From positions 1 through 30,494 of the IMG/VR virus record IMGVR_UViG_3300032223_000748: DNA of 30,494 nt; one strand, written 5' to 3'. The position numbers were made by a program, and so were the translations under genes. This document shows positions 703 to 30,480 of this stretch, in pieces; positions within the stretch are counted from its first letter, which is position 1, and every line of letters starts with the position of its first letter. The DNA is from a virus. Under the pieces are notes generated by a model that was given only the letters and a program-made list of their open reading frames with translations, made no database searches and was not told the DNA's origin.

Positions 703-2318
703 ATACCCGCAACAATTTGTGAATCATTAATTGCCCCCAATAACGTTTGGGCGACTTTTTCTTTTATTTGGCTTGCACCTTCTCCAACGGTTGTTGTACT
801 GACTTTAAATTGCTCAATCAACTTTCCAATTTGAATGTTGATGGTCGTTGACTTACTCCCTGACACTTTTGATGCCTCACCGCCTCCCGTTTTTGGCTTT
901 GTCATTTCGGGCATTGCCGTCATGGCTGGCATTTTTTCCGCACCTTGGGTGATTAAATCTTTGCCCGTCATTTCCTTGTCCTCGGTACTTTTTACCTCAA
1001 CTTTATTTTCGGCGGTAACTTTTACGTCCTTAATGCCCAATAACTTTTTAACTTTTTGATACGCCTTTTCAATTGCGTCCAATATTGGTTTTAATGATGT
1101 TTCATAAATACTTTTAATCATGCCCCCTATCAATTTAATAAAACTCCATACCAATTCAAAGGCCTTTTTGATAACCCAAATAACGCCGATTTTTTCTAAC
1201 AAAACATATATAGTATGTAAAACATCAATGACGCTTGCAACAAATTTTGATACAGCACTAAACAACCACGAAAACCCATCTATGATCCAACCCAATGCGG
1301 TTTGTAACCCGCCTAAAATACCTTCGCCCTCGCTTGAAAATTGCGCCAACGTGTCCCAAACCAACATGATGCCGTTGTAAATGGATGCAAACAAATTTTT
1401 AATGGGAGTAAATAAAGGTTCAAAAAAATTGTACACCGCATTTGCAAACATTTTTATATTATTGGCAATTGCACCAAAATCTACGTTTTTACTAATAAAC
1501 GTCCATAATTCACTTAATTTGTCAATTGCTTGCATACCAACACTTGCAATCCATTCTAATGCTGGCGACAAAGATTCCTCAATCTTATCGGCTAACTCGC
1601 CCAAACTATCTTTCATTTCCTCAATGGTCTTTGTGCGCCTAAAACCCGCGTCGGCTTCGGCTGCGGCTTTCGCTGACCCTCCAAATTCACCCTCCAATTC
1701 CTTTAATATCAACTTTTGACGTTCAACCGTGTCGGTGACGGTTTCAAATTTCTTTTTCAATTCGTCCACATTCACACCCGCACGACCTAACGCCGTAATG
1801 CCTCTTTCGGGGTCTTGCAATGCTTTACCCAATTGCAAAATTGACGCTTGCGGGTCGCCTTTCATACGCGTTGCCATATCCAATGCGGCTTGCGTTGTCC
1901 TATCAAAAATGTCCTTGGAAACCGCGGGGAACGTTAACAAAACACCTTGTACGCCCTCAACTTGGCCACGGGTAAACTTCATTTCATGGGCAAATTTCTT
2001 TGCACTTTCAACCATGCCGTCGAAAGTTACACCAGCTTGACTTTGGGTACTTTTCAAACCCGCTTGCAATTGTGAATTGGCAAACTCAATTTGTTCGTAT
2101 GCTTCGCGTGATTCACCGATAAATTCGGTCACCTTATCAACAACATACGCGCCCGCAATAATACCGCCAATTTTTTTGATGGCTTCGTTAACATGGTTCG
2201 ATGCTTCGGCCACATGGTGCATCGACTTCTCTAATTTGGTCGCCTCGGCGTCGGCTTCTTTTAATTTACCCGTCAATAAATCTTTGAGGGTTAATATAAA
2301 TTCAACGGTGTTGCTCAT
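699..2318 (-). CDS. Tail tape measure protein
   Basis: A 539-residue protein that sets tail length and is threaded inside the tube. Residues about 15-60 are a charged heptad-rich coiled coil (LKEADAEATKLEKSMHHVAEASN). An alpha-helical Ala/Lys-rich region follows, then a middle third with many hydrophobic, Trp-rich segments (around 250-400) typical of tape measures that insert into the host membrane at infection, and a Thr/Ser/Lys-rich tail. At about 1.5 angstrom per residue it would give a tail near 80 nm. Its ATG overlaps the stop of the frameshifted chaperone fusion by one base, which is the standard position for a tape measure. Confidence 0.9.
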   Translation of the reverse strand: MSNTVEFILTLKDLLTGKLKEADAEATKLEKSMHHVAEASNHVNEAIKKIGGIIAGAYVVDKVTEFIGESREAYEQIEFANSQLQAGLKSTQSQAGVTFDGMVESAKKFAHEMKFTRGQVEGVQGVLLTFPAVSKDIFDRTTQAALDMATRMKGDPQASILQLGKALQDPERGITALGRAGVNVDELKKKFETVTDTVERQKLILKELEGEFGGSAKAAAEADAGFRRTKTIEEMKDSLGELADKIEESLSPALEWIASVGMQAIDKLSELWTFISKNVDFGAIANNIKMFANAVYNFFEPLFTPIKNLFASIYNGIMLVWDTLAQFSSEGEGILGGLQTALGWIIDGFSWLFSAVSKFVASVIDVLHTIYVLLEKIGVIWVIKKAFELVWSFIKLIGGMIKSIYETSLKPILDAIEKAYQKVKKLLGIKDVKVTAENKVEVKSTEDKEMTGKDLITQGAEKMPAMTAMPEMTKPKTGGGEASKVSGSKSTTINIQIGKLIEQFKVSTTTVGEGASQIKEKVAQTLLGAINDSQIVAGI

Positions 2319-2823
2319 TAGTTTTCCATTTTACCCAACCTTTGCAATACGAATTTTAAACGCCCCCACGTTTTCCACAATTGTTCGTCGGTTAACGTGT
2401 CGGGGTCAATAGTGAAATTGGAATAATAGGCAATAAACGCGCTTATTTGCGTTTCCTCGCTTGAATCAACCGTTATGGTGTATTCCTCTATTTTTTTTTA
2501 AATTGCTCTTGGCTTATCTTAATCAACTCCATGCAAGCCATCGAAGCACCCAAAAAATATTTGTCGTTTTCGGGCAATTCTACGTAAATACGTGGGTCGC
2601 TTGCGTCCTTAATCAAAATCGCCTCTAACAGCTCACCAGCGGCCACCGTTGCGCCCTTTTGTATGGCTGAATCCAATGCCCGTTGTTTTACGATTCTCAT
2701 TGGTTCTTTGATGTAGCCAACTACCTTTTCGTCGTTTTCAGCGACAAAAATTAACGGGTGAACCTTGCAATTTTCACGTTGCGAAAGTTCACCCGCTTTT
2801 TTTTGAATTTCCTCGTTTGTCAT
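2318..2823 (-). CDS. Tail assembly chaperone, long form made by -1 frameshift
   Basis: If ribosomes slip back one base on the A9 run at 2491-2499, translation continues past the TAG at 2488-2490 for 57 more codons to a TAA at 2318-2320, giving a 168-residue product. The extension begins IEEYTITVDSSEE and ends LQRLGKMEN. It is acidic, helical and open over its whole length, and it fills what would otherwise be a 169-base gap before the tape measure. The arrangement matches lambda gpG/gpGT: short and long chaperones sharing an N-terminus, directly upstream of the tape measure. The long form is expected to bind the tape measure and recruit tube subunits. Confidence 0.8.
2488..2823 (-). CDS. Tail assembly chaperone, short form (gpG-like)
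   Basis: A 111-residue acidic, helical protein between the tail tube and tape measure genes. It ends in EQFKKK followed by TAG, with the three lysines encoded by nine consecutive A. By position and by the slippery end it is the analogue of lambda gpG, a cytoplasmic chaperone that coats the tape measure and is not kept in the virion. The leader before its ATG is A/T-rich (tcgtaaaacaaaattt), as for other starts here. Sequence similarity alone would not identify it; context does. Confidence 0.75.
   Translation of the reverse strand: MTNEEIQKKAGELSQRENCKVHPLIFVAENDEKVVGYIKEPMRIVKQRALDSAIQKGATVAAGELLEAILIKDASDPRIYVELPENDKYFLGASMACMELIKISQEQFKKK
2491..2502 (-). other. Slippery site for programmed -1 frameshift
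   Basis: On the minus strand the sequence is CAATTTAAAAAAAAATAG: TTT followed by nine A, ending directly at the 0-frame stop. Both T-TTA-AAA and A-AAA-AAA allow tandem slippage by one base. The stop codon right after the slip point should stall the ribosome and favour slippage. I did not model a downstream structure. Confidence 0.75.
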
Positions 2824-2852
2824 AAATTTTGTTTTACGACAAATTTACAAAA

Positions 2853-3269
2853 TTATCTAACAATCGCACCAATTACAATTGGAACGGTTACCATCAATTT
2901 TGAATCGCCTTGGTTGGCTGTAAAATTGTCTTCCATAAACTCACATGATTGCAATTTGTCGGTTGTCACCAACACCCCGCGACCTGAGTAATTTACTTGG
3001 ATGTCAAACGGGGCAATCAATAGTGGATCGCGATTTGGTGCGCTGGCAATAATGCGTTTCCATTCGTCCAAATACAATTCAATTGAACCCTCGTATTCAA
3101 AATTTGAATAACCACGCGACACGGGTTGTGACCCATAACCGTAATTGTTTTCCTTTTTTTGTTTTCTTTTATACTCAATTTTGGTGATGCCTACCACGGG
3201 AACACCGAACAACGTCAATGTGATGTTCGCCCATGAATAGTTTATACCATTAATTAAAGGTGTTGACAT
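2853..3269 (-). CDS. Tail tube protein
   Basis: A 138-residue, beta-rich protein lying directly after the sheath gene, the fixed order of contractile tails. It contains the pattern of tube proteins: a short N-terminal strand region (NGINYSWANITLTLFG), a basic loop (KIEYKRKQKKENNYG), strand pairs (FEYEGSIELYLDEWKRI) and a terminal hydrophobic strand (KLMVTVPIVIGAIV). It would polymerise into the inner tube through which DNA passes. Length fits the family. The identification leans on synteny and fold-like features rather than a catalytic motif. Confidence 0.8.
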   Translation of the reverse strand: MSTPLINGINYSWANITLTLFGVPVVGITKIEYKRKQKKENNYGYGSQPVSRGYSNFEYEGSIELYLDEWKRIIASAPNRDPLLIAPFDIQVNYSGRGVLVTTDKLQSCEFMEDNFTANQGDSKLMVTVPIVIGAIVR

Positions 3270-3275
3270 GTTTTA

Positions 3276-4796
3276 TTAAATTGAAAGGGTGAAACCAATG
3301 TTAACGGTGATTTGACGTGCAACGCCCACGGGAACTAATTTAACCGCAATAGTCAAATTGTTGGTTGATAACACATTTTGCGTTGGGTCAATTACAACAT
3401 CAAATGCCGACAATTCGTTGTCGCGTACCATTTGTTGTAAATTTATCCCCGCTTGGCTTTCGAAATACGAAACCGTTGTGTCTTTCAATGTTCCGTCCGC
3501 ATTTAACGTCAATGGGCTGTTTAAATTAGGCAACATCGATGAATAAATACCGCGTACCGCTTTATCAATGGTGCGGTTGTTTTCAATGTATGCGTAATCA
3601 CTTGAAACCGAAATTGCGCAATGTGAATCGTTGAAATAAGACCCCGCAATACCAACGTAATTAATCAGGAAAATGTATCGGTAATTGTCCAACGTATTTA
3701 AAATGCTTTGTGAGGTCGATTTTACCGATGTTCCATTGGCAAAATTAATTGTGTCACACTCACTACCATTTGAAATGTTGAATTTTGATACCCATGCAAT
3801 GTCTTCACTCACCTTTGCAAGGGCAACCGCCCCCAATGTCGCACCCAAACACGTAATCGATTTGGCCTGTGTAACATATAGGTAATTTCCTTGTCCCGCG
3901 CCGTCTTGACCAATTACAACACTAACATTCGGGTTGTTATACGATGCCAAATTTGCTAACGTGGTTAAATCGCTGACCGCTTTAATGTTACCAGCAAATA
4001 CCACACTCAACGGCTTGTGTAACCCCGCTAATGTATTGCATACGCTTTGAATGGTTGTTGTGTCGCCCGCTGAATAGGTTGAATCTTTAAAGATACCCAA
4101 TTGACGTATTTTGCCATCCGCAACATTTTGCATGTCTTGAATTTCGGTGTAGTTCGTCGAACTTGACCAAATACCGATATACAATGCGCCTTTTGGTTGG
4201 ATGCGGAAAAACTCGGAAATATGGTAATGCCACACCGCTTGTTTTGAAACGGTACCGCTTGAAAATTGCCCAATTGTACCCGCCAATGTTGCGCCCGAAC
4301 TATACGTTGCCGAAATTGGTGTTGTTGCGGTGTTTAACCAAACCCCAAAACGTTTTGGTGCGCTAATTGTCACGGTTGATGTACCAACGGTTGCGCTAAA
4401 TCCGTGCGAATATGTACCCGCATTGATAACCGCACCAATTGCCGTTGCAACCAACGCCGTTGAACTATCGCCCGAAACTTTTGTGTATGTACCCAAATCG
4501 TATGTTGTAGCCGTTCCCACCTCGTCAATTGCCGTAACTTTCAATTGTACGGTGTCGCCGTCGGCACCTTTATTTGTTACTAAATACGTACCCGTTGCGG
4601 CCGTACCGTCGGAATAATCGTTTAAGATACCCGCGTTTTCGGCTTCCTGAACACTTCCGACCAATTGTACTTTGCTTGCTGGCCATCCCGATGGTGCTGT
4701 TCCGTAAAACAACAACCCCGAAATGTAATCTTCGCCCTCCAATGGACGACCCAACCCGCCTTGTCCTTTGACAAATATGATGTCGTTTAATGCCAT
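3276..4796 (-). CDS. Tail sheath protein (DUF2586-like)
   Basis: A 506-residue protein forming the contractile sheath around the tube. The N-terminus (MALNDIIFVKGQGGLGRPLEGEDYISGLLFY) resembles the DUF2586 sheath family of Bacteroidota Mu-like phages. Residues about 65-190 are an inserted Thr/Ser/Gly-rich beta domain, probably surface exposed. The C-terminal half has the conserved sheath core (LDNYRYIFLINYVGIAGSYFNDSHCA, then NRTIDKAVRGIYSSMLPNLN) and ends in a hydrophobic strand. The gene is followed six bases later by the tube gene. The family name is by eye; sheath function is well supported by size and neighbours. Confidence 0.85.
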   Translation of the reverse strand: MALNDIIFVKGQGGLGRPLEGEDYISGLLFYGTAPSGWPASKVQLVGSVQEAENAGILNDYSDGTAATGTYLVTNKGADGDTVQLKVTAIDEVGTATTYDLGTYTKVSGDSSTALVATAIGAVINAGTYSHGFSATVGTSTVTISAPKRFGVWLNTATTPISATYSSGATLAGTIGQFSSGTVSKQAVWHYHISEFFRIQPKGALYIGIWSSSTNYTEIQDMQNVADGKIRQLGIFKDSTYSAGDTTTIQSVCNTLAGLHKPLSVVFAGNIKAVSDLTTLANLASYNNPNVSVVIGQDGAGQGNYLYVTQAKSITCLGATLGAVALAKVSEDIAWVSKFNISNGSECDTINFANGTSVKSTSQSILNTLDNYRYIFLINYVGIAGSYFNDSHCAISVSSDYAYIENNRTIDKAVRGIYSSMLPNLNSPLTLNADGTLKDTTVSYFESQAGINLQQMVRDNELSAFDVVIDPTQNVLSTNNLTIAVKLVPVGVARQITVNIGFTLSI

Positions 4797-4797
4797 T

Positions 4798-5001
4798 TTA
4801 TTTCTTTTTGCGTTGTTTTACAACTTTGTTTTCTAATGTTGTTTCCTCGGTTTGCTCAATGGTTTCATCAATTTCGGGTTCGTCAAGTAACAAACACACG
4901 CCGTTTTTTACTTCATGTATATGTACCTCGCCATTAAGTACCCAAACTTTTTTGATATGAGGGAGGTTTTTATATTCCTCCCTTATTTTTTTTTGTGACA
5001 T
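4798..5001 (-). CDS. Small acidic/basic protein of unknown function upstream of the sheath
   Basis: A 67-residue protein with a basic start, a central short beta stretch (VWVLNGEVHIHEVKNGVCLLL), an acidic Glu/Thr-rich segment and a Lys/Arg-rich end (KVVKQRKKK). The second to fifth codons contain an A9 run. It sits between the secreted-looking protein and the sheath, with one base before the sheath start codon region. I do not recognise a family. By position it may be a minor head or neck protein. Confidence 0.6.
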   Translation of the reverse strand: MSQKKIREEYKNLPHIKKVWVLNGEVHIHEVKNGVCLLLDEPEIDETIEQTEETTLENKVVKQRKKK

Positions 5002-5007
5002 AACCTA

Positions 5008-5439
5008 TTATTGTACCGTTCTACATGTTTCAACCCACTTTGCGCCGTCAAATATAAATTGAATGACCGCACGTAACCCCGTTGATGTTGTTGCCGTACC
5101 CGTTGAAATAAAATTAGTACCCGCGAATTTAACTTTTTTACCGCTTGTGCTTGAACTTGCAACGATAACCAATTGATCCCCCGCGTATGAACGTGTTACA
5201 ATTGGCGATTTGAAATAAACGCTATCGGTTAAGGCAACCTGAACAATTGTTTTCCATGCGTTCGGGTTCAACGTGGTACTATCCGCACCGCTTGCATCGG
5301 TAACGGTTTTGTATGCGTATGTCAATACACGTCCCGTGTTGTCCATACCCGCCGACGTTCCAAAACGTGGCGATGTGCTTTGTGCATTAACTCCAAATGC
5401 ACATGCAATGATTGATAAAACAAAGATAAATTTTTTCAT
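5008..5439 (-). CDS. Protein with N-terminal signal peptide between capsid and sheath genes
   Basis: A 143-residue protein opening with a textbook export signal: MKK, a hydrophobic stretch (FIFVLSIIACAFG) and VNA before Gln20. Cleavage after Ala19 would leave an N-terminal Gln, as in the Bacteroidota Q-rule. IIAC at 10-13 could alternatively be read as a weak lipobox. The rest is Ser/Thr-rich beta (TSPRFGTSAGMDNTG..., then AVIQFIFDGAKWVETCRT) with two conserved-looking aromatic ends, like a small decoration or fibre domain. It follows the capsid gene, separated by a terminator. Whether it is a virion component or is exported to the host envelope cannot be decided from sequence. Confidence 0.75.
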   Translation of the reverse strand: MKKFIFVLSIIACAFGVNAQSTSPRFGTSAGMDNTGRVLTYAYKTVTDASGADSTTLNPNAWKTIVQVALTDSVYFKSPIVTRSYAGDQLVIVASSSTSGKKVKFAGTNFISTGTATTSTGLRAVIQFIFDGAKWVETCRTVQ

Positions 5440-5450
5440 TGTAGTATTTT

Positions 5451-5475
5451 TTTTAAAAACGCCCCGAAGGGCGTT
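5451..5475 (-). terminator. Intrinsic terminator after the capsid gene
   Basis: On the minus strand a 7-base-pair stem (AACGCCC / GGGCGTT) closes a TTCG tetraloop and runs straight into TTTTT. It lies 14 bases after the capsid stop and 19 bases before the next start. It probably lets capsid mRNA end here while a fraction reads into the tail genes. Confidence 0.8.
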
Positions 5476-5488
5476 CGTGTGATTAAAA

Positions 5489-6535
5489 TTAAGCGGTTAA
5501 TGTTGTGTATATAACAAGCTGGTCTGTGAATCCAATTTGGGTGTCCATTTTGAAAAGACCTTTAACAAAGAACAACTCCGAATTGTTTTGCAAACGCATC
5601 AATTGCAATTGATTGTCTTCCGTGCTGTTAATACCCAACCACAAATTTGAATCAATATCGGGTTTTGAAATACACAATACGATTGTGTTGTCAGGCATAC
5701 CCGCCAATGGCTTAATTTCGTACCCTTTAAAACGGTTGATACCCTTTTCGGTGTAATCGTTGTTCTTGTACGTTGCCGTTGTTGTTAACCATGCTTCGTA
5801 AACTTGTTGTGTCGCGTATGAAACGTGAAATTTCAAACCACCCTCACCATATTTGAACAACAATGCTTTTGTATTTGCGTTGGTAGCGAGAGCCGCATAA
5901 CAACGTTGGAACGCATCGCCCACGTTTTCCTCACCTGAACCAGCCGTACCCGCAACCAATGTTTTTGGGTTGCTAATCGAAATGGTTGGGTATGTTGATG
6001 CACTTACGCCATCCAATGCCTTTTTGATAAGACCATCAAAGTAAAAATATGCGCTTGCGCTTGCCGAATCACCCTTTGTGGTTGGATCAACCGCCGCACC
6101 GTCCGCATCGTAATCAAGGCGTGAACGCCAAATTGCGTTTTCAAAAAATTCATTCAAACGCTTCATGGTTTGCATCATCATGAAATTTTCAGCCGTAACG
6201 GGCAACTCACGACCCAACAATTTTGGTTGCAATTGCTCGGCGTAGAAATGTTGTTCGTAATCGCGTGGGTTGAACTCATAATACAACATGAGGTCTTGCG
6301 GTGTTAACACACGACCGTCAACGTCCACACTACCCTGTGATTGTGGTGTTGCGGTTCTTTTTTGCATGAAATTAGATACCTCAATACGTGGAATGGTCTT
6401 TTTCTTACGGATGCCATCCTCTACGTAGATACAACCTTTTTCGATTGTGTCAGCACCTACAACGGCGCGTGTAATCATGTACGAAGCCGCTGGGCCACTC
6501 CACGACGTGTCTATAATGTTTAATGCGTCAGACAT
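5489..6535 (-). CDS. Major capsid protein
   Basis: A 348-residue protein directly after the protease/scaffold gene and before a terminator, the expected place and size for an HK97-fold capsid protein. It contains an N-terminal arm (to about 60), a helix-rich region with FENAIWRSRLDYDADG (about 130-145), and a C-terminal part rich in strands (NRFKGYEIKPLAGMPDNTIVLCI, then SELFFVKGLFKMDTQIGFTDQLVIY). The leader before the ATG (cctaaaaatcaataaaaa) is A-rich, fitting strong translation in Bacteroidota. No N-terminal delta domain is obvious, consistent with a separate scaffold. Confidence 0.9.
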   Translation of the reverse strand: MSDALNIIDTSWSGPAASYMITRAVVGADTIEKGCIYVEDGIRKKKTIPRIEVSNFMQKRTATPQSQGSVDVDGRVLTPQDLMLYYEFNPRDYEQHFYAEQLQPKLLGRELPVTAENFMMMQTMKRLNEFFENAIWRSRLDYDADGAAVDPTTKGDSASASAYFYFDGLIKKALDGVSASTYPTISISNPKTLVAGTAGSGEENVGDAFQRCYAALATNANTKALLFKYGEGGLKFHVSYATQQVYEAWLTTTATYKNNDYTEKGINRFKGYEIKPLAGMPDNTIVLCISKPDIDSNLWLGINSTEDNQLQLMRLQNNSELFFVKGLFKMDTQIGFTDQLVIYTTLTA

Positions 6536-6557
6536 TTTTTATTGATTTTTAGGGTTA

Positions 6558-7064
6558 TTAATTGATGTTTAATTTGTTTCTCACCTCTTGCATTGCACGT
6601 GCGGCTACCATTTGCAATTCGGCATCATTCGCGGTTTGGCTAACGGTTACGCTTACGGCTTTACCATTGGTTGGCAATGATTCCAACAATGTTTTTGTTT
6701 CAGCCATATTTTTGATTGCCATTGCAACCCATGAATTTTTCGCCTCGGGTTTTACTTTTCCTTGTTTAACTGAATCGTCAACCATTTTCTCGGCTTCGGC
6801 TTTTTTTGCCTCGTCTTCGGCTTTGGCTTTGGCCTTTTCGGCGTCTTCCATTTTGGCTTTCAATTCATCCATTTCGGCTTTCAATTTGTCGCACGTTTGT
6901 TTTGCTTCGGCGTAATCGTCGGCCATTTTATTTAACTTGTCCTCCATTTCGGCTTTTTTGTCCTCCATTTCGGCTTTTTTGTTCATTATTGCGGTAATTT
7001 CCGCAACAATTGATTGCTCGTTTGCGTCGGTGTTAAGACCCAACATATTGGCAACTCTTGTCAT
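6558..7064 (-). CDS. Probable separate scaffold protein from an internal start in the protease gene
   Basis: Met205 of the protease gene (ATG at 7064) is preceded by an A-rich leader, cctaaaaataaaacaaac. This closely resembles the leader of the capsid gene (cctaaaaatcaataaaaa) and is unusual for the inside of a gene. Starting here would give a 168-residue protein containing only the coiled-coil scaffold part (MTRVANMLGLNTDANEQ...). Lambda makes its Nu3 scaffold in this way from inside gene C. The existence of the product is inferred. Confidence 0.5.
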   Translation of the reverse strand: MTRVANMLGLNTDANEQSIVAEITAIMNKKAEMEDKKAEMEDKLNKMADDYAEAKQTCDKLKAEMDELKAKMEDAEKAKAKAEDEAKKAEAEKMVDDSVKQGKVKPEAKNSWVAMAIKNMAETKTLLESLPTNGKAVSVTVSQTANDAELQMVAARAMQEVRNKLNIN

Positions 7065-7676
7065 GTTTGTTTTATTTTTAGGTTGAAAAATACTATTTGC
7101 CATTTGACGACCCGTCGTCCACATTGCTTTTGCGTTGCCATGTTTTACATTGGCTTCGTTGCTGTACTCTATTTCGTCACAAAAACCCGTTGTCAATGCT
7201 TCACTCGCCCCAATCCATGTTGTGCGATCCATCATTTTCAAAACAAAATCAACACTTTTACCCGTTCTTTCGCTAATCATTATCGCCAAACTTTCACGCA
7301 TTTTTTTTAATTCCACGCTATCGCCCCCGTATGGGTTGTGATACATCAACAATGAATAATCGGCCATGTATCGTTTGCGACCCGCTTGAAATATAACGGC
7401 CGCAATGCTGGCCGCAATACCGACGTTGTACGTATCAACTTTGGTTTTTGATTTCAAAATTGCGTTGAATATTTTGTACCCATCCATCACAATGCCACCC
7501 TCCGAATTTATCCAAACTTGGATGCGCTTTTTGTTCAACGTGTCCAATCTTAACAATTCCTCTTGAAACAACGCCCCATCAATGCCCATACCTTGCACCT
7601 CGTCAAAACCAATGTGTTTATTTATCAACATTATTGGCTCATCACTTTCAACATCAACGGTGTATATCCAATTCAT
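6558..7676 (-). CDS. Prohead protease (ClpP/S14-type) fused to scaffold domain
   Basis: A 372-residue protein. Residues 1-175 are a ClpP-like serine protease: strand and oxyanion region (VWINSEGGIVMDGYKIFNAI, 54-73), nucleophile Ser90 in GIAASIAA, His113 in LLMYHNPYGG, and an acidic residue near MDRTTWIGASEAL (Asp150) as likely third member. Residues about 230-302 are a long charged coiled coil with a tandem KKAEMED repeat, followed by a helical tail, the composition of a scaffold. The fusion resembles phage protease-scaffold genes such as lambda C/Nu3, and it lies just before the capsid gene. It would direct prohead assembly and then process it. Confidence 0.85.
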   Translation of the reverse strand: MNWIYTVDVESDEPIMLINKHIGFDEVQGMGIDGALFQEELLRLDTLNKKRIQVWINSEGGIVMDGYKIFNAILKSKTKVDTYNVGIAASIAAVIFQAGRKRYMADYSLLMYHNPYGGDSVELKKMRESLAIMISERTGKSVDFVLKMMDRTTWIGASEALTTGFCDEIEYSNEANVKHGNAKAMWTTGRQMANSIFQPKNKTNMTRVANMLGLNTDANEQSIVAEITAIMNKKAEMEDKKAEMEDKLNKMADDYAEAKQTCDKLKAEMDELKAKMEDAEKAKAKAEDEAKKAEAEKMVDDSVKQGKVKPEAKNSWVAMAIKNMAETKTLLESLPTNGKAVSVTVSQTANDAELQMVAARAMQEVRNKLNIN

Positions 7677-7725
7677 GAGGTAAAATTATTCGGTTTTTTT
7701 ATTGGTTTGGGGGTGTGGGGTACAA

Positions 7726-7920
7726 TTAAAGGTATTTTTTTTTGTCGTTTAGGTATTTGTGTTTGTGTTCGTCAGGTATTCGGTTGAAAAAATCTTTGAA
7801 AATTATGTTGATTCCTTCGCTTACGCCCAATTGGTTAACCGATACAAACCCTTTAAACAACGCATCGTTTTTTGGTTTTAAATACCCACATACTTTGTTT
7901 TGATGCACCCGTTTTGCCAT
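7726..7920 (-). CDS. Small ribbon-helix-helix-like protein
   Basis: A 64-residue basic protein. I choose the ATG at 7920, which overlaps the TAA of the fibre gene (TAATG), over an upstream ATG inside that gene. A short strand (KVCGYLKP), a helix (NDALFKGFVSVNQLG) and a second helix (VSEGINIIFKDFFNRIP) give the order and spacing of Arc/CopG ribbon-helix-helix DNA-binding proteins. The protein ends in DKKKYL with the lysines encoded by A9. It could regulate late transcription, perhaps binding near the protease/capsid genes; function is inferred from shape only. Confidence 0.55.
   Translation of the reverse strand: MAKRVHQNKVCGYLKPKNDALFKGFVSVNQLGVSEGINIIFKDFFNRIPDEHKHKYLNDKKKYL
7735..7743 (-). 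other. A9 homopolymer, candidate second frameshift site
   Basis: Nine A on the minus strand (GACAAAAAAAAATAC) lie two codons before the stop of the small helix gene. A -1 slip opens 20 more codons, Pro-rich, ending at a TGA that overlaps the ATG of the protease gene. The run could instead be a simple mutation-prone tract. Confidence 0.35.
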
Positions 7921-8735: not shown

Positions 8736-8736
8736 G

Positions 8737-10292: not shown

Positions 10293-10293
10293 G

Positions 10294-20982: not shown

Positions 20983-21060
20983 AAAATAAAATTGCCTTCG
21001 CATGGTAGGAAATCGCACAATTCCCCACCAATTGAAGGCGTTTAAATGTCTTGTTGGTGT

Positions 21061-21081: not shown

Positions 21082-21088
21082 CAAATTT

Positions 21089-21307: not shown

Positions 21308-21316
21308 GTGTCTTTT

Positions 21317-23397: not shown

Positions 23398-23403
23398 GTT
23401 TTT

Positions 23404-23718
23404 TTATTTGTTTAGTAATTGAATTTTTGTGCGAATGTCATTGTACAATTCGTGAACGTCCTTTTTTAAATCAACATTAAATCCCGCCCGTTTTAGGTAT
23501 TTATTGCGTCGCTTGAATTGTTTTACCGCTTGGGCGCACATATCCAATTTTGCCATCGTTTGCGCGTTTTTTATACAATCCTTTAAATTGCTAAAATCGG
23601 CATAATATGAAATTTGAAATGGTTTGCCTTTTCGATAATACACATGGCGTTGAACTTGTTTTGGCAAAAAAACAAACCAATAAAAAAGGACGAATAAAAT
23701 GATAATGAACAAGGCCAT
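23404..23718 (-). CDS. Unknown protein with N-terminal membrane helix (104 residues)
   Basis: Residues 2-18 (ALFIIILFVLFYWFVFL) are one membrane helix, followed by a basic, helical cytoplasmic domain (IKNAQTMAKLDMCAQAVKQFKRRNKYLKRAG). Its start lies two bases before the stop of the preceding small gene. An early membrane-bound protein; superinfection or host-takeover roles are possible but not shown by sequence. Confidence 0.65.
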   Translation of the reverse strand: MALFIIILFVLFYWFVFLPKQVQRHVYYRKGKPFQISYYADFSNLKDCIKNAQTMAKLDMCAQAVKQFKRRNKYLKRAGFNVDLKKDVHELYNDIRTKIQLLNK

Positions 23719-23719
23719 T

Positions 23720-23881
23720 TTAAATTGATTTTAGTAACTGAATTTTCATTTTTTCAGTACCTCCAACCTCGTTGATTTTAGATTGATTGATGTAAACGGT
23801 GATTGGTTTTTTGGGGTCGGTTGCTTTTTTTCTACCAGCATTTACCCGCGCACCCCCTCGATTGTCTTTTTTGATTTTCAT
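23720..23881 (-). CDS. 53-residue GGAR-AGRK basic protein
   Basis: A short gene in the space between two longer early genes. The protein starts MKIKKDNRGGARVNAGRKKATDPKKP, the common GGARxxAGRK motif of small DNA-binding phage proteins, followed by ITVYINQSKINEVGGTEKMKIQLLKS, which resembles a ribbon-helix-helix-like strand and helix. The start follows aaaaaaacacac. Probably a small DNA-binding regulator; family name not assigned. Confidence 0.65.
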   Translation of the reverse strand: MKIKKDNRGGARVNAGRKKATDPKKPITVYINQSKINEVGGTEKMKIQLLKSI

Positions 23882-23925
23882 GTGTGTTTTTTTTGGCGAA
23901 TTTAAACGATTTTATCAAATTAATA

Positions 23926-24153
23926 TCATTTAAAGGGGCATTTTTTTATCCCATAATCAACGCCCGAATGAAACACGGCTAAAATGTCCAACGACGATTC
24001 AACACGCAATTCGAACGTCGTAAATTCGTCGTCGGTTTCTAAAATTTCGATTTTATGACCTAATCGGGTGTGTAAAAATTCCATGCGGTCATGTGTCACG
24101 CACATTTTGTAAATGGCGTAGGTGTCGGCTGGTTTGTGGGTGTACTTGTACAT
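23926..24153 (-). CDS. Unknown early protein (75 residues)
   Basis: A small mixed protein (MYKYTHKPADTYAIYKMCVTHDRMEFLHTRLGHKIEILETDDEFTTFELRVE...) with a possible beta centre (KIEILETDDEFTTFELRVESS). An A-rich leader (ttttaaaatcaaaatca) precedes the ATG. No family recognised. Confidence 0.6.
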   Translation of the reverse strand: MYKYTHKPADTYAIYKMCVTHDRMEFLHTRLGHKIEILETDDEFTTFELRVESSLDILAVFHSGVDYGIKKCPFK

Positions 24154-24164
24154 TGATTTTGATT

Positions 24165-24263
24165 TTAAAAGTTAAAAAAATTGTCGGCAAATAATGCGAC
24201 TAACAATGCAATGATAAGAAATACCGTTGCTTGTGTTGATGTTAAATCGTCAGGGTGTTTCAT
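24165..24263 (-). CDS. Tiny membrane protein (32 residues)
   Basis: The start at 24263 is chosen because it follows the upstream stop by 19 bases with an A-rich leader (taaactaaaaaccaaaatc); longer frames begin deep inside the preceding gene. The product is MKHPDDLTSTQATVFLIIALLVALFADNFFNF, with one membrane helix from about 14 to 28. Function unknown. Confidence 0.5.
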   Translation of the reverse strand: MKHPDDLTSTQATVFLIIALLVALFADNFFNF

Positions 24264-24282
24264 GATTTTGGTTTTTAGTTTA

Positions 24283-24573
24283 TTAACGATATATTGATCC
24301 ATAGTCATTTTTGTCCTCTCGCATGTCGTTGTAAATTTCATCAAACAAATTGTTGTAATTATCGACATTTTCAAGGTGTTGGGTTATGTAAAAATTACCG
24401 CAATTGTCATGGTTGTCCTTATCCCATGTGATGTTGTCAATTTCCCAATCCCATTCACATGATGGGTCGTTGCTGGTTGGCCTCCATTTAAGATTGGCAA
24501 TAAATTCAACCTCCAATTCAATTTCGTCGTTTTCGGTGTTGTGATAAATGAATTTTTTGTACGTGTATTCCAT
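24283..24573 (-). CDS. Unknown acidic early protein (96 residues)
   Basis: A very acidic protein with several Trp and Asn (ENDEIELEVEFIANLKWRPTSNDPSCEWDWEIDNITWD), then a helical end (NLFDEIYNDMREDKNDYGS). The first half reads as antiparallel strands. Small acidic proteins expressed early in phages sometimes mimic DNA or block host enzymes, but nothing here proves this. It starts six bases after the first early gene ends. Confidence 0.65.
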   Translation of the reverse strand: MEYTYKKFIYHNTENDEIELEVEFIANLKWRPTSNDPSCEWDWEIDNITWDKDNHDNCGNFYITQHLENVDNYNNLFDEIYNDMREDKNDYGSIYR

Positions 24574-24578
24574 GGCTG

Positions 24579-24767
24579 TTATTTTAAATTTTGTTTGAGG
24601 GTTTCCAATTCAACTAAACGATTGCGGTAATACGCCAACATGTTTTGGGGCGGGTATTCGCGTTGCTCAATAGTTGAAATAATACCAATAATTTGATTGG
24701 TGCGGGCGTCGATTGATTCCAAAATCAATTGGCAATCGTGGTAATCTAATTTGTAAGATGTGTTCAT
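24579..24767 (-). CDS. First gene of the early operon, small helical protein
   Basis: The start is placed at 24767 (MNTSYKLDYHDCQLILES), because the in-frame ATG at 24797 lies inside the promoter -7 box region and could not be transcribed. The 62-residue product is helical with a coiled-coil-like end (MLAYYRNRLVELETLKQNLK). The leader is a run of A (aacaaaacaaaaaaat) with no Shine-Dalgarno, a strong start type in Bacteroidota. Function unknown, but being first behind a strong promoter suggests high early expression. Confidence 0.7.
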   Translation of the reverse strand: MNTSYKLDYHDCQLILESIDARTNQIIGIISTIEQREYPPQNMLAYYRNRLVELETLKQNLK

Positions 24768-24786
24768 ATTTTTTTGTTTTGTTTCA

Positions 24787-24817
24787 CAAAGATACATGGT
24801 ACTTTGATTCCACCAAA
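24787..24817 (-). promoter_or_regulatory. Bacteroidota-type promoter for the early operon
   Basis: Minus strand: TTTG at 24814-24817, exactly 19 bases, then TATCTTTG at 24787-24794, matching the Bacteroidota primary sigma consensus TTTG-N19..21-TAnnTTTG with no mismatch. Transcription would start a few bases downstream, leaving a short A-rich leader before the ATG at 24767. A second, weaker TATATTTG box lies upstream at 24837-24844 without a well-spaced TTTG. Confidence 0.8.
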
Positions 24818-24870
24818 TTTTTTTTCATTCTTTTTTCAAATATATTTCAAAGTAATGTGTAAAACACACA

Positions 24871-24899
24871 AAAAGAAAACCCCCCGTGGAAACGGGGGG
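24871..24899 (-). terminator. Strong intrinsic terminator before the early promoter
   Basis: An 8-base-pair GC-rich stem (minus strand CCCCCCGT / ACGGGGGG) closes a TTCC loop and is followed by TTTTCTTTT. There is no U-run on the plus side, so it acts on minus-strand transcripts arriving from the lysis genes. Confidence 0.85.
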
Positions 24900-24975
24900 C
24901 GTCTGTCTATTATCCAAATTCCATGAAAAACGTAAAATTGGCACAATTTTTTGACATGCAAAAACATGTGACGTA

Positions 24976-25001
24976 CAAAAAACCCACGTAAAAACGCGGG
25001 T
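24976..25001 (-). terminator. Second terminator-like hairpin
   Basis: Minus strand ACCCGCGT-TTTT-ACGTGGGT forms eight pairs including one G-U wobble, followed by TTTTTTG. On the plus strand the same position is an A-C mismatch, so the structure favours the minus-strand RNA. Confidence 0.7.
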
Positions 25002-25016
25002 CGATTCAATTACAAG

Positions 25017-25046
25017 AAAACCCCCCACGCCGTAAAAACGGCACGG
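25017..25046 (-). terminator. Third hairpin after the lysozyme gene
   Basis: Minus strand CCGTGCCGT-TTTT-ACGGCGTGG forms nine pairs with two adjacent G-U wobbles that are mismatches on the plus strand. GGGG and then TTTTCTT follow. The distance to the U-run makes it a weaker terminator; it may instead protect the 3' end of the mRNA. Confidence 0.5.
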
Positions 25047-25078
25047 TTAAGATTAACAAACTCAAAACTCACGCAAAT

Positions 25079-25567
25079 TTACGACCATTTAGGCCAATTA
25101 AATTTTATTTCGCCCGTAAAATATAAATGTGCCTCACAACGGCGACGACGACCCAACCCCCACAATTTATTGCCTAATCTATCCCACAAACCCGTACCAA
25201 TTATTTCGGCTTTAATGCGCTGGTCATTTGGATCGGCGTTAATCAATTCGTCTAATTTTGTTTTGAGGAAATTACCAATACCGCGGTTGTACACGTAATC
25301 AAAAATTGCCGTGGTTTGCGATTCGTTCAAACTGACTTTTATGTATTGATTCAAATACGTGGCAATTTGCGCATCCTCTAATTTCATCCACTCAATGACT
25401 TTCATTCGGTCAATCTTATCACCTTGCATGACCTTTCGTTTGGCCTCGTAATTGTAGGTCGAACCATACCCGATTGTCCACACTCCCCCACTGTCTTTAT
25501 ACGCGTTAGGGGAAAAACCCTCAAAATGTTCGCGTATTTGCGATAGTTTATCGTAATTGGGCGTCAT
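25079..25567 (-). CDS. Endolysin, GH24 T4-type lysozyme
   Basis: A 162-residue muramidase that cuts peptidoglycan between MurNAc and GlcNAc. The catalytic triad pattern E-x8-D-x5-T is intact: Glu16, Asp25 and Thr31 in FEGFSPNAYKDSGGVWTIGYGS. A later NRGIGNFLKTKLDELIN segment and GLWDRLGNKLWGLGRRRRCEAHLYFTG (the usual RRRxxExxLF end) complete the family. There is no signal peptide or SAR helix, so it needs a holin to reach the wall. It overlaps the spanin gene by four bases and ends the late operon before the terminators. Confidence 0.95.
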   Translation of the reverse strand: MTPNYDKLSQIREHFEGFSPNAYKDSGGVWTIGYGSTYNYEAKRKVMQGDKIDRMKVIEWMKLEDAQIATYLNQYIKVSLNESQTTAIFDYVYNRGIGNFLKTKLDELINADPNDQRIKAEIIGTGLWDRLGNKLWGLGRRRRCEAHLYFTGEIKFNWPKWS

Positions 25568-26082
25568 TTTTTACGTATAAAATGGGTTAATATGGCAATA
25601 ATCAACAAAAGTAACAAAATCAATATGGCGATATTTCGCGTTTTTAGGGCGTTTTTAGCCGTTTCCAACTCTTTTTGGACAATTGCATTGTTTGCGTTGC
25701 AATCGTTTAATTTCAACGCCAATTCTTTCGTTAGGGAACTATCACGAACGTATTTTGTAATTACCTTCGATGGCAATTGAACAACCTTTGAAATAGTAAT
25801 TGTTTTACCAGCTTTGTAAATTACATGGGTGACGGTGTCAAATTCCGTATTGACAATGGTGTCAACTCCCGAAACATAATCGTTGGGGCAATTGAATGAA
25901 ATTAGTGTGTCGGTATAAAATATGGCGGTATCAACTCCCGTAACATTACACGGGAAATTGGCACGAAATAACGGCAAAACGTCGGCGGGGTGTTCTTTCA
26001 TCGCTTTGTTGGCTTGTTTTATGGCCTTTTGCGATGTGTAACAACCTACCAACGCGAACGCAATGATAAGGTATTTTAACAC
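25564..26082 (-). CDS. Unimolecular spanin (lipoprotein plus C-terminal membrane helix)
   Basis: A 172-residue protein with both anchors of a one-piece spanin. The N-terminus is a lipoprotein signal (MLKYLIIAFALVGC, lipobox LVGC with Cys14). Residues about 149-166 are a membrane helix (IAILILLLLLIIAILTHF) followed by RKK. Between them lie strands (DTAIFYTDTLISFNC, then TVTHVIYKAGKTITISKVVQLPSK) and a coiled-coil-like helix (ALKLNDCNANNAIVQKELETAKNALK). In phage T1 gp11, the known example, such a protein spans both membranes and fuses them at lysis. Its place between holin-like and lysozyme genes supports the call. Confidence 0.85.
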   Translation of the reverse strand: MLKYLIIAFALVGCYTSQKAIKQANKAMKEHPADVLPLFRANFPCNVTGVDTAIFYTDTLISFNCPNDYVSGVDTIVNTEFDTVTHVIYKAGKTITISKVVQLPSKVITKYVRDSSLTKELALKLNDCNANNAIVQKELETAKNALKTRNIAILILLLLLIIAILTHFIRKK

Positions 26083-26086
26083 GTAT

Positions 26087-26239
26087 TTATTTTTTGTCGC
26101 CCGAATGGTAACCCAAAAACAACAAACTACCCGACGTTAAAATTTGACCAATAAAAACCAATGTTGGGTTTGTAGAATTTTGTAAGTAAGTACCCACGGC
26201 GGCTAAAATACCGCACAATGTAGTTTTCCAATCTTTCAT
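26087..26239 (-). CDS. 50-residue holin-like membrane protein
   Basis: A short gene starting on the stop of the previous one (ATGA). The product is MKDWKTTLCGILAAVGTYLQN, then a second hydrophobic stretch (TLVFIGQILTSGSLLFLGYHSGDKK) with a charged end. Two short membrane segments and a Lys-rich tail are the look of small phage holins or antiholins. It ends five bases before the spanin start. Confidence 0.65.
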   Translation of the reverse strand: MKDWKTTLCGILAAVGTYLQNSTNPTLVFIGQILTSGSLLFLGYHSGDKK

Positions 26240-26415
26240 TTTTTAATGTATTTTTTGATGATTGCGATGACCGCGGGCGCACTTTTAATTATTGACATAA
26301 TGGATGCAACGATGGCAAAAAAACCTACTAAATTACTCATGGTCAACCATGATAGCAAGCTAAACGCCCAAACAACCAATATGTCCCATTTCCCGCCCGT
26401 ATCGAAATGTTGCAT
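26236..26415 (-). CDS. 59-residue putative holin
   Basis: A gene with a leader of A (ctaaaaacaaaaaaa). The product has a polar start (MQHFDTGGKWD), two membrane helices (about 11-26 and 28-44) separated by a short turn, and a hydrophobic-basic end (AVIAIIKKYIKK). Size, basic C-terminus and location two genes before lysozyme fit a class II-like holin. The pair with the next gene may work as holin and antiholin; which is which cannot be told. Confidence 0.65.
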   Translation of the reverse strand: MQHFDTGGKWDILVVWAFSLLSWLTMSNLVGFFAIVASIMSIIKSAPAVIAIIKKYIKK

Positions 26416-26482
26416 TTTTTTTGTTTTTAGGTAGTAAAAATACCCATATACATTTTGTATTTATACGCTGGTGTGGTACAAT

Positions 26483-26665
26483 TTAACCCGTGTAATTTAA
26501 ATATTGAAAATGATTTGGTATTTCACAATCAACTAATTCAAATTCATTTGGGTAATCAATCAAACACGGATGGTGTTCTAAATCACCCATGTAATTGCGT
26601 GTATCAACAACCGTGTATGCTTCATTCGGGTTAAAACTACTCCCGATTTGTCTAATATGTATCAT
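26483..26665 (-). CDS. Unknown protein between fibre and lysis genes (60 residues)
   Basis: A small acidic soluble protein (MIHIRQIGSSFNPNEAYTVVDTRNYMGDLEHHPCLIDYPNEFELVDCEI...) starting on the fibre gene stop (ATGA). It has no membrane segment. It could be a fibre assembly chaperone, as genes in this position often are, but no family is recognised. Confidence 0.55.
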   Translation of the reverse strand: MIHIRQIGSSFNPNEAYTVVDTRNYMGDLEHHPCLIDYPNEFELVDCEIPNHFQYLNYTG

Positions 26666-29094
26666 TGCGCGTAGTATTGTATTGTTGCGTAAATGTTTTT
26701 TGGGTTTATGGAACTGCCCGAACTACGGAATACGTAAACGTTGTACCCGTTGTTACTACTATTGATTTGAATTGCTGAAACAAATGTTGAACCCGACGGC
26801 AATGTTACGCCGTCCACTTGTATTGATCCCGACCCCGTGTACAAAATGGCGTTTGCACCACTTATGCCCGTCGGTGATGCTGGCGTTGGTAACGTACTTG
26901 GAAATGGTATTGTACATGCCGTGATTGCCGACCCCGCCGTACCAAAAACCAAATTGACCCACACGGTTACTTGTTTGCCAACTTGCACCCATCTATACGT
27001 GTGGTTTGTTGTCCCCGATGGGGCGGTTGTACCCGTAAATGTAGGCGTCCCCGAATATGTCCCCGACGAATCGCGGAACGATTGTGTTGTTACACTTGCG
27101 CTTGCGTTGGTATTATTTGCAACAAATGAATATGACGCAATCGTTTTTCGTTGAAATACCGACGTGTCCGACGTGCCAATTTTTGTGTCTATTCTTGCAC
27201 TCAACGTCGCGGTGTCGGTTTTGCGTAGGTATTTACTTAACATCGTTGATGTGTCCGACGTGGTTATGTAATTTCCCGACGCTTGTTTACCGTTAATAGC
27301 CGTGTAAATGTTTGTACGCATCGTGTCAGAACGATATTTTGAAAAATACGTCAATGAATCATTTAACCTATGGTATTTATTGCTCAATGTTGATGTATCT
27401 ACGCTAATTATTTGACTCGATTTTGACAACCCATAATTTGTATTGTTAAAATACTTCGACAACATTGTTGCCGTGTCACTTGGTTTGATGTATCGCGTAC
27501 CAATTGCGGTTGTTGGGCTTACATCATGCCACAGTGAATCCACACGGCTAAATTGTAACAATGTAGAATCATTCGGCACTAATGCGATTTTAACATCACT
27601 CATTTCGTCTAACTGAAAACCATTTCTAATAGCCACCTGAATAGTGCCAAAATTAGGGTGTGCTCTTGTTATGGTTCCGATTGCGACATAATGATAAGGT
27701 GCTAATGGCTTTGTCGTTGTATATCCACCTGCCACCGTTGGGCTTAAATATAAAGTTTGACCATCGGTATAACTTGAAGTTGGCAAATTTAAATTTGTGA
27801 TTGTTCCGTTTTGTATAACGGTACCCTCCGAATTGTTGGCGATATCGTCAACAACTAACCCGTATGTGTACGCCGATGTTGATTCCGCGTTTGCTTTTGC
27901 CAAAGCAATAGATGGAAGTACACTTGAATGTGCGCCGTTTATATAAACCACGGCACCCCTTGGGATTGTTGCGCCGCTGCTATTCCAAACTTGCGTTATT
28001 AATCGTGTTGCACTTGTAACCGTTGCCGACGAACGTATTGTTATGTCAGTGGTTGTGCCATTTTTTACAACTCTAATTGTTGAATCATTCAATCCCGTTA
28101 CCGAATTTACCCACTTATTTGCGGTGTCCGATATTTTTAATTTTGTAGAAACTGAACTATCAACGTAATGGCGTGTCGCTAATGTGTCAACTTGGTTGTT
28201 TTGATATGGCAAAAACAAATTACCAAACGAACTATCAATGTAATTCAAAAACTGACCACGATTTTTTGTTTGAAAATACAAAGATGGTGTATTGTATGCG
28301 TTGTTGTTAATCCCAATCTCAATGTATTTGTTGGTGCTATCTTTCATTCCTATAAATGCCCCTTGATACAAAGGTGATATGTATATTTCGCTGCCATTTA
28401 CAATCGTGTCATACATATCAATTTCTTTTCCATACGTTATATGTCCATTTGATAAAACTTCGTTTAATGTTGGCACACTCGCAACAATTGAACTATCAAC
28501 ATAATGGTGTGTTGCAATGGTTGTTGTGTCGGGATAACTTATGTCCGATGTCAATGCTAATGTCCCCGATGTACTCGGCAACAAATACTCATTGTTTCCC
28601 GTATTCATACGAATAAACGCCCTATCGCCATTCGCTGGCCTATTTATTCCAATTCCCATGTCGTAACCAGCAATGCCACCGCCCCCGTAATGAAATAAGG
28701 TATCGCCATTTTTGTTGTAAAAATTTAATCCCCCATCAATATTACCATCAATGATTTGATACCCTCCCGAAAATGAATCGTACACATACAATCCTTGAAC
28801 ACCAACATAATTGGTTGTCGTTGCGCCTTGGTCGGTTACTTGTTGCAAATTTGGTGTTGAACCTCCCCCACCCGTGCCATTTAATTTCATCCACTTGCCG
28901 TGCAATTTGTAATAAACGGCCGAATCCTGAGGGCGCAACACAATTTGTGCGCTATCGTTTAACAACGTGGCAACGGTGTCGCTTACGGGAATACCCAACC
29001 CCTTGGCAAATCTTTGTTTACCATTAATGATTGTCCATTGCGCCGACGCGCTGAAACTCACAAATAAAAATGCAAAAAATAATACTTTTCTCAT
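26662..29094 (-). CDS. Large fibre-like protein with N-terminal signal peptide
   Basis: An 810-residue protein. Residues 1-18 are a signal peptide (MRKVLFFAFLFVSFSASA) with Gln19 after the predicted cut, as in the Bacteroidota Q-rule. Then come Gly-rich beta repeats, two HYVDSS motifs (about 196 and 310), a beta domain from about 355 to 495 starting ITQVWNSSGATIPRGAVVYI, repeated DTxTMLSKY / DTATLSARI segments (about 540-650), and a C-terminal domain (YRWVQVGKQVTVWVNLVFG...) resembling that of the fibre at 7920-8735. It lies after the baseplate genes and before lysis. Receptor-binding fibre is likely; the signal peptide is odd for a virion part. Confidence 0.8.
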   Translation of the reverse strand: MRKVLFFAFLFVSFSASAQWTIINGKQRFAKGLGIPVSDTVATLLNDSAQIVLRPQDSAVYYKLHGKWMKLNGTGGGGSTPNLQQVTDQGATTTNYVGVQGLYVYDSFSGGYQIIDGNIDGGLNFYNKNGDTLFHYGGGGIAGYDMGIGINRPANGDRAFIRMNTGNNEYLLPSTSGTLALTSDISYPDTTTIATHHYVDSSIVASVPTLNEVLSNGHITYGKEIDMYDTIVNGSEIYISPLYQGAFIGMKDSTNKYIEIGINNNAYNTPSLYFQTKNRGQFLNYIDSSFGNLFLPYQNNQVDTLATRHYVDSSVSTKLKISDTANKWVNSVTGLNDSTIRVVKNGTTTDITIRSSATVTSATRLITQVWNSSGATIPRGAVVYINGAHSSVLPSIALAKANAESTSAYTYGLVVDDIANNSEGTVIQNGTITNLNLPTSSYTDGQTLYLSPTVAGGYTTTKPLAPYHYVAIGTITRAHPNFGTIQVAIRNGFQLDEMSDVKIALVPNDSTLLQFSRVDSLWHDVSPTTAIGTRYIKPSDTATMLSKYFNNTNYGLSKSSQIISVDTSTLSNKYHRLNDSLTYFSKYRSDTMRTNIYTAINGKQASGNYITTSDTSTMLSKYLRKTDTATLSARIDTKIGTSDTSVFQRKTIASYSFVANNTNASASVTTQSFRDSSGTYSGTPTFTGTTAPSGTTNHTYRWVQVGKQVTVWVNLVFGTAGSAITACTIPFPSTLPTPASPTGISGANAILYTGSGSIQVDGVTLPSGSTFVSAIQINSSNNGYNVYVFRSSGSSINPKNIYATIQYYAQ

Positions 29095-29642
29095 GCGTTA
29101 ATCATTTCCGTGTAAATAATAAACAACCGCGAACCATCAAAAATTGGGTTGGTCAATGTCAACACACCCGTACTTTTATTCCATGACCATTCCGTTTTTA
29201 ACAATGGTTGTATGTCGGCCTCAATTCCTTCAATGCTTTTGCCAATTAATGATGTTAAATTTATAATCGTTTCGCCCGTTCCCGATGTAGAAACGTAATC
29301 GTATGTTTTGGTCGCTTGGTACACACTCATTGTGTCGGGTACGTATGGCGAAGGGTTCGGAACGTATGCGCTGGGTTGATTCGCAACGGTCACATAATAC
29401 GTATTTCCATTACTACCATACCCCGTCGCGTATATTATGTTTTGATTTGTCGTTGTTACGCTAACCAGCGAATCCACAACCAATGTATCGTCCCAAACAA
29501 ATTTTTGACCCGTGTACGGGATGGCGTCGGCATTTGGTACGTTGTTGTCTTGTATCAATTTGTAAAAATAATCCATTGATCCGTATGTGTTCATACATAC
29601 GTCGGCCAATGTTTGCCCGCTTATTGCGCTAAATGTTTTCAT
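29091..29642 (-). CDS. LysM-like tail protein with beta C-terminal domain
   Basis: A 183-residue protein. Residues 2-51 (KTFSAISGQTLADVCMNTYGSMDYFYKLIQDNNVPNADAIPYTGQKFVWDD) resemble a LysM repeat, as in phage tail protein X-like proteins. The rest is Ser/Thr-rich, ending with a strand-rich segment (EWSWNKSTGVLTLTNPIFDGSRLFIIYTEM). It is translated between gp25/gp46-like and fibre genes. LysM may bind peptidoglycan or hold the fibre to the baseplate. Confidence 0.65.
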   Translation of the reverse strand: MKTFSAISGQTLADVCMNTYGSMDYFYKLIQDNNVPNADAIPYTGQKFVWDDTLVVDSLVSVTTTNQNIIYATGYGSNGNTYYVTVANQPSAYVPNPSPYVPDTMSVYQATKTYDYVSTSGTGETIINLTSLIGKSIEGIEADIQPLLKTEWSWNKSTGVLTLTNPIFDGSRLFIIYTEMINA

Positions 29643-29941
29643 ATTGGTTCGGCATTTGGGTTGATTGTCAATTGTCCATCAACGGACAAAGTTACAACGG
29701 GCGCACTTGTTTTGTACCCGTCGGCCTCTAATTCAATCGATATTTTACGATTCAATTGTTGCGCGTTGGTGTTGCTTTTAATGTACGCCATCAATCCCAC
29801 CCCATCCAATGGGTTTTCTTTCCACCATCCCGCAAACGCGTTGATTGTATCAATGACATGTTGCGTGTCACTTTGTGCAAAAATGAAATCGTCGTTTTTT
29901 ATGTACAAATCGCCGTTGTTTAATGCTATGTCGTACCTCAT
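29639..29941 (-). CDS. Baseplate wedge protein, gp25/Mu gp46-like
   Basis: A 100-residue protein, directly following the spike with an ATGA overlap. The pattern MRYDIALNNGDLYIKNDDFIFAQSDTQHVIDTINAFAGWWKENPLDGVGLMAYI, with a short strand start and the WWKENPLxGVGL turn, fits gp25/gpW and Mu gp46-like wedge proteins. It would link the hub to the sheath start. The gpJ partner is not nearby but at 9447. Confidence 0.75.
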   Translation of the reverse strand: MRYDIALNNGDLYIKNDDFIFAQSDTQHVIDTINAFAGWWKENPLDGVGLMAYIKSNTNAQQLNRKISIELEADGYKTSAPVVTLSVDGQLTINPNAEPI

Positions 29942-30480
29942 TGTTTTATTGTTGTGTTTTCAATGTCCGTTCGGTTGGTCGGTGTCAATGTCCCCGAAAT
30001 GGGTGACAATGGCGCACCCGTAGGCGATCCACCCCCACCATTGCTATGCGTATGCGAATTGAATGTTGAAATGATTGAATTTATTTTGTTTTCAATCGTG
30101 TTCAATTTGTCAGTCAATGAAATAACTTTTACCATGCCCCCTAATTCGCCGTCATTAAATTGTATCAAATCGCCAGCCCAATATATCTTTTCAACCTCTG
30201 AATACTGAACAATGAATGGGTCGGTATATTTTGAAAATAATACTTTCACCTCACTATCAATACGTGGAATAATCAATACGCCATCACTAACAACCGTTTG
30301 AAATTCGACGTTGGTTATTTCGGTTGATGCGTTCCCGCTTATTGCTTCAACCGTACATGTCCCGTTGGCTTCGTTTATTTCCGATACCTTACCCGTCACC
30401 AAATACAATTGGTCAATGTTGTATGTTCCCGTCATTTTTTGTATGGCCGATATTATCGACCTGTCGTGTTGTTCGTTCAT
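29938..30480 (-). CDS. Baseplate spike protein (gpV/gp45-like)
   Basis: A 180-residue protein. The N-terminal half is an OB-fold-like barrel (YLVTGKVSEINEANGTCTVEAISG, then GVLIIPRIDSEVKVLFSKYTDPFIVQYSEVEKI), the middle a helical/beta stalk, and the end SHTHSNGGGGSPTGAPLSP (about 139-157) is the His-x-His Gly-rich tip seen in Mu gp45 and P2 gpV, where His residues bind iron at the needle point. It punctures the outer membrane. It begins with an ATG overlapping the stop of the gene cut by the right edge. Confidence 0.88.
   Translation of the reverse strand: MNEQHDRSIISAIQKMTGTYNIDQLYLVTGKVSEINEANGTCTVEAISGNASTEITNVEFQTVVSDGVLIIPRIDSEVKVLFSKYTDPFIVQYSEVEKIYWAGDLIQFNDGELGGMVKVISLTDKLNTIENKINSIISTFNSHTHSNGGGGSPTGAPLSPISGTLTPTNRTDIENTTIKQ

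Follow-up and report, generated by a model that had tools for sequence, protein, structure and literature searches.

Retention of GATC only inside GGATC in an uncultured phage record that has lost many short words

In the 30,494-base virus sequence analyzed here (the window, which is the complete IMG/VR record IMGVR_UViG_3300032223_000748, classed linear), the tetranucleotide GATC is retained only where it lies inside GGATC. Many other Type II words are lost from the window as well, and different sets are lost from its relatives. We put at about an even chance the reading that many Type II sites are avoided by this phage and that GATC is exempt where GGATC is modified, as by an enzyme of AlwI specificity.

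Gene content and affiliation of the window

The record is probably a fragment of a larger phage genome. Its minus strand carries nearly all of the genes, which encode a sheath, Mu-like portal, Mu F-like protein, Clp-type protease, terminase, DnaB helicase, ERF, YqaJ, NinG and lysozyme. Three of these are located as follows.

3276..4796, minus strand: tail sheath (DUF2586, PF10758), query for relatives and basis of the tree
13079..14425, minus strand: Mu-like portal protein (PF06074)
15339..16907, minus strand: terminase large subunit (PF03237)

Judged by its genes, the window is a Winoviridae-like myophage, as shown by homology of its sheath (DUF2586), portal, Mu F-like, Clp-type protease and baseplate genes. 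Sheath identity with Flavobacterium phage pippi8-1 is about 45%, and relatives at 52-56% identity were found in Sphingobacteriales and Chitinophagaceae genomes. The phage is a virus of Bacteroidota bacteria. A PAPS-reductase-like gene (PF01507, phrog_424) is also present at 17428-18162.

GATC occurs only inside GGATC

The window contains 21 GATC sites, located and flanked exactly as a sequence-only reading of it had listed them. All are YGATCC or its complement (nine TGATCC, seven CGATCC, four GGATCG and one GGATCA), and they are conserved only partly in aligned relatives.

1284..1288, minus strand: GGATC site (GATCC on the plus strand)
3025..3029, plus strand: GGATC site, kept as GGATCR in L029, L030 and L050
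5175..5179, minus strand: GGATC site
6084..6088, plus strand: GGATC site, kept in L020 and L050
7226..7230, minus strand: GGATC site, aligned relatives without GATC here
8921..8925, minus strand: GGATC site
10027..10031, plus strand: GGATC site, kept in L020 and L026
11579..11583, minus strand: GGATC site
13635..13639, minus strand: GGATC site, aligned relatives without GATC here
14753..14757, plus strand: GGATC site, kept in L020
16435..16439, minus strand: GGATC site
16995..16999, minus strand: GGATC site
19126..19130, minus strand: GGATC site
20513..20517, minus strand: GGATC site
22014..22018, minus strand: GGATC site
23123..23127, minus strand: GGATC site
24296..24300, minus strand: GGATC site
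25230..25234, plus strand: GGATC site
26825..26829, minus strand: GGATC site
29578..29582, minus strand: GGATC site, kept in L029
30026..30030, minus strand: GGATC site

The scarcity of GATC that had been claimed is upheld, since base composition predicts 108 sites and a second-order Markov model predicts 54. Shuffles that preserve the proteins and codon usage, on which the sequence-only reading had staked its rule, give 50.6 ± 5.9 GATC sites (range 33-67), and YGATCC never makes up more than half of them. Because these shuffles do not match the window, neither the number of GATC sites nor their flanks comes from coding; codon choice is ruled out as the cause, as that reading had argued, and there is next to no probability that base composition or codon usage yields the rule by chance. 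As in restriction avoidance, the recognition word stays far under expectation after composition, proteins and codon usage have been allowed for.

The six-base form proposed earlier, GGATCR, is one base too long. GATC outside GGATC (HGATCD) is never seen, with about 36 sites expected from a second-order model that includes AG depletion. Inside GGATC it is unavoided, with 21 sites seen against about 17 expected from the second-order model (GGATCC not counted) and 22.9 in the codon-preserving shuffles. The classes that the final R excludes amount to only about 3 expected sites (1.4 for GGATCT/AGATCC and 1.6 for GGATCC). In record L082, which lies on another branch (sheath identity about 51%) and has normal AG content (rho 0.90), all ten GATC sites fall in GGATC, three of them as AGATCC, and HGATCD stands at 0/14. 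Given how few sites the R classes should hold and the presence of AGATCC in L082, the rule is that GATC survives only inside GGATC, which is the AlwI-type pattern. AG/CT depletion and avoidance of GGNNCC account for the R in GGATCR.

Recurrence in other records and other words

A related imbalance is found in record L031 (observed/expected 1/13 for HGATCD and 6/8 for GGATC). Where HGATCD falls below 0.3 of expectation, GGATC is either lost too or kept to a greater extent, and the reverse pattern, with GGATC lost and other GATC kept, is absent from all scanned records. The 62 other GATC-avoiding records have an observed/expected ratio of 0.11 outside GGATC and 0.22 inside it (binomial p = 3e-12, for records that are not independent), and the corresponding values in nonavoiding records are 1.02 and 0.97. 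GATC is completely missing from the sister phages L021 and L022.

Avoided tetranucleotides with one exempt flanking base account for 23 cases in real records with a length of 8 kb or more, of which the control run had 128; some of the cases are from near-relatives, so the independent events number fewer than 23. Sequences simulated from a second-order Markov model gave no such exemption, and those from a third-order model gave one. The exempt forms include AGCT as TAGCT, ACGT as AACGT, GCGC as TGCGC, CATG as CCATG, CCGG as CCCGG, CAGG as TCAGG or GCAGG, and CCAG as CCAGC or CCAGT. For cultured Flavobacterium phages, the counts of CCAGC versus other CCAG are 119 versus 2 (pippi8-1) and 130 versus 4 (lotta8-1). 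The same two phages (L175 and L198, respectively) carry GGGA nearly always as GGGAA (46 versus 1 and 50 versus 2) and lack CATG, CCGG, GGCC and CTAG. The window likewise has CCAG nearly only as CCAGC (52 versus 2, the 52 sites extending from 263 to 30173), and nonpalindromic CCAG is absent or nearly so in L026, L070, L019, L021, L022, L047 and L101.

Several further losses in the window had been passed over by the sequence-only reading, as had the AG/CT depletion described below: CCGG (0/80 observed/expected), CTAG (0/13), CCNGG (0/52), GGNCC (2/73) and AGNCT (0/12). CCGG, CCNGG, GGNCC and CTAG are typical Type II sites. The low AGCT count noted by eye is correct at 15, but it does not reflect separate avoidance, since AG/CT depletion alone predicts 14.

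Proposed restriction with a modified subset of sites

Bacteroidota hosts equipped with many Type II restriction-modification systems would drive the loss of their recognition words from the phage, and a GATC-cutting enzyme (MboI/DpnII specificity) would remove every GATC that can be cut. GGATC would survive if both of its strands are modified by a methylase of AlwI specificity (GGATC and GATCC), supplied most likely by the host or possibly by an unsequenced part of the phage. M.AlwI methylates GGATC and GATCC and does not methylate AGATC, TGATC or CGATC (PMC4081073). Restriction at GATC that leaves a protected subset of sites had already been put forward from the sequence; it is still the best fit and is strengthened by the independent case of L082, the one-way hierarchy among records and the same pattern for other words, with the protected word shortened to GGATC. 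We infer that the pattern is driven by restriction and that the exemption comes from methylation rather than from enzyme preference.

A Bacteroidota host whose systems are listed offers a parallel. Flavobacterium psychrophilum has HpaII (CCGG), ScrFI (CCNGG) and a GATC methylase among its 12 systems (PMC11837570), and FPSV-S1, a Winoviridae phage of this species, has observed/expected counts of 0/78 for CCGG, 0/50 for CCNGG, 2/46 for HGATCD and 0/10 for GGATC. The analogy with this pair supports the view that an avoided word may be the site of a host Type II system.

The earlier suggestion to look for a methyltransferase yielded none in the window: families PF02086, PF01555, PF00145, PF05869 and PF02384 have no match in the 30.5-kb record, which is possibly a fragment. 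The DpnII-family nuclease (PF04556) is found in none of 11 host-like genomes. In two host-like genomes, D12 methylases were rejected as GATC systems, one being located beside a putative EcoRV-like nuclease (a call made by eye, with no family match) and the other seemingly solitary. We know of no methylase that matches the exempt words TAGCT, TGCGC and AACGT, which counts against a methylase account. The CCAGC exemption in Pippiviruses, whose genes include none annotated as a methylase (PMC7077304), argues that a phage methylase is not the general cause.

A nuclease that by itself spares GATC after G (specificity HGATCD) would leave the same mark as GGATC modification. Methylation would then be unnecessary, and degenerate-flank enzymes could explain the other exemptions too. 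PspXI (VCTCGAGB) is an example of such flanks, and the one-flank exemptions of many words with differing exempt bases, also in phages without an annotated methylase, are consistent with this alternative. However, we know of no enzyme with HGATCD specificity, and all-or-none exemption of many unrelated words needs many such enzymes. We consider it somewhat unlikely.

A combination of two causes, in which a YGATCR-cutting system acts together with an AG/CT depletion that removes AGATC, appears quite unlikely. It would account for the absence of YGATCR (0 seen, about 29 expected), and AG depletion by itself keeps AGATC rare. However, AGATCA and AGATCG are also not found when 7 sites are expected with AG depletion modeled, and L082, in which AG is normal, has no GATC outside GGATC and yet has three AGATCC.

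Even spacing of the sites

The even spacing described earlier is real by all tests used. The coefficient of variation of GATC spacing is 0.395, and none of 200,000 uniform placements is as even. Greenwood's test gives p = 5e-6, or p = 3e-5 when placement is restricted to the window's own GGAT/ATCC positions, and among words of 4-6 bases, 971 in all, GATC is the most evenly spaced. Spacing is likewise too even for CCAGC, the window's other exempt word (p = 1.5e-4); the two words show no joint placement in the window (p = 0.11).

Restriction does not account for this spacing. Two-site enzymes, of the sort described in PMC4081073, would remove close pairs and leave the lack of long gaps unaccounted for. 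Even GGATC spacing is seen only in the window and not in further records that follow the rule, so we treat it apart from the GATC rule; as a part of the exemption rule it was dropped, other exempt words being without it. The spacing, with that of CCAGC, is what could favor YGATCC as a functional motif (such as a signal for repair, recombination or packaging) that is kept at intervals of about 1.4 kb with other GATC purged. The functional motif, put forward in the earlier reading, is unsupported and very unlikely: the number of GGATC sites is that of the shuffles, their conservation in relatives is partial, the sister phages L021 and L022 lack GATC altogether, and other records with the rule do not space GGATC evenly.

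Depletion of AG/CT

AG/CT has a rho of 0.37 across the window (1..30494), in all three codon phases and in intergenic sequence, and the coding regions hold 1,248 AG and CT where synonymous choice predicts 3,063. Most terminase relatives have AG rho values of 0.91-0.95. The sister rows in the sheath tree (L021, L022 and L106) have AG at 1.13-1.15 and CA/TG at 0.62-0.64, and low AG recurs in L103 and in L067/L070/L078. The finished genome of cultured tant8-1 has an AG rho of 0.36 and FPSV-S1 has a CA rho of 0.63, so these depletions are not assembly artifacts of one record. BAG is lost from tant8-1 (0.07-0.14) and AAG is spared (0.87). Depletion of CA/TG (rho about 0.57-0.64) with CAA/TTG spared is observed in the window's sister clade (L021, L022, L047, L101 and L106) and in the cultured phage L196 (FPSV-S1).

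Relative to L020, substitutions of AA, CG, GG and TG for AG each outnumber the reverse change. A single mutational process was rejected on this basis, and the replacement pattern fits selection better. A host signature was also rejected as the cause, because sampled host-like DNA has rho values of 0.76-0.94, far above 0.37. A purely additive context model around AG fits poorly (deviance/df 4.2), but its fit is equally poor for other dinucleotides, so the misfit carries little weight.

Like the even spacing, the AG/CT depletion is not explained by restriction combined with GGATC modification, and we know of no explanation for the loss of whole dinucleotides in selected phage lineages. One conjecture, which we regard as unlikely, is that the defenses of some hosts recognize very short words subject to a one-base exemption (e.g., BAG/CTV, with AAG spared), leading to genome-wide dinucleotide loss, and that lineages escaped different ones (AG in the window, CA/TG in the sister clade).

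Comparison with known systems

From sequence alone, flank exemptions would show which cutting specificities and which protecting ones an uncultured phage has met. This is testable in cultured pairs, namely pippi8-1, lotta8-1 and tant8-1 on Flavobacterium LMO8 and FPSV-S1 on F. psychrophilum. No matching precedent for flank rules or AG depletion was found in the literature covered, which lay mostly outside subscription journals.

Restriction-site avoidance by phages (Rusinov et al. 2018, PMC6286503) shares with our case the loss of Type II words of 4-5 bases. In its abstract, background and part of its methods, that study does not discuss the sparing of an avoided site according to its flanks; the window differs in losing many words at once and in having words exempted by single flanking bases. 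In the AlwI system, with its fused GGATC and GATCC methylases (PMC4081073), the word that the methylases protect is the one spared in the window, although the window yielded no gene of this kind.

Tantvirus tant8-1, a Flavobacterium siphovirus, resembles the window in AG/CT depletion (rho 0.36) and has a terminase 44% identical over 313 residues, but no further protein homology was detected and its GATC is unavoided. GATC is likewise unavoided in Pippivirus (pippi8-1 and lotta8-1), in which AG/CT is near normal (rho 0.84) and sheath identity to the window is about 45%. These phages nonetheless carry homologs of the window's tail sheath, portal, Clp-type protease and baseplate genes, and they share with it the retention of CCAG as CCAGC and the loss of CCGG, CTAG, CCNGG and GGNCC.
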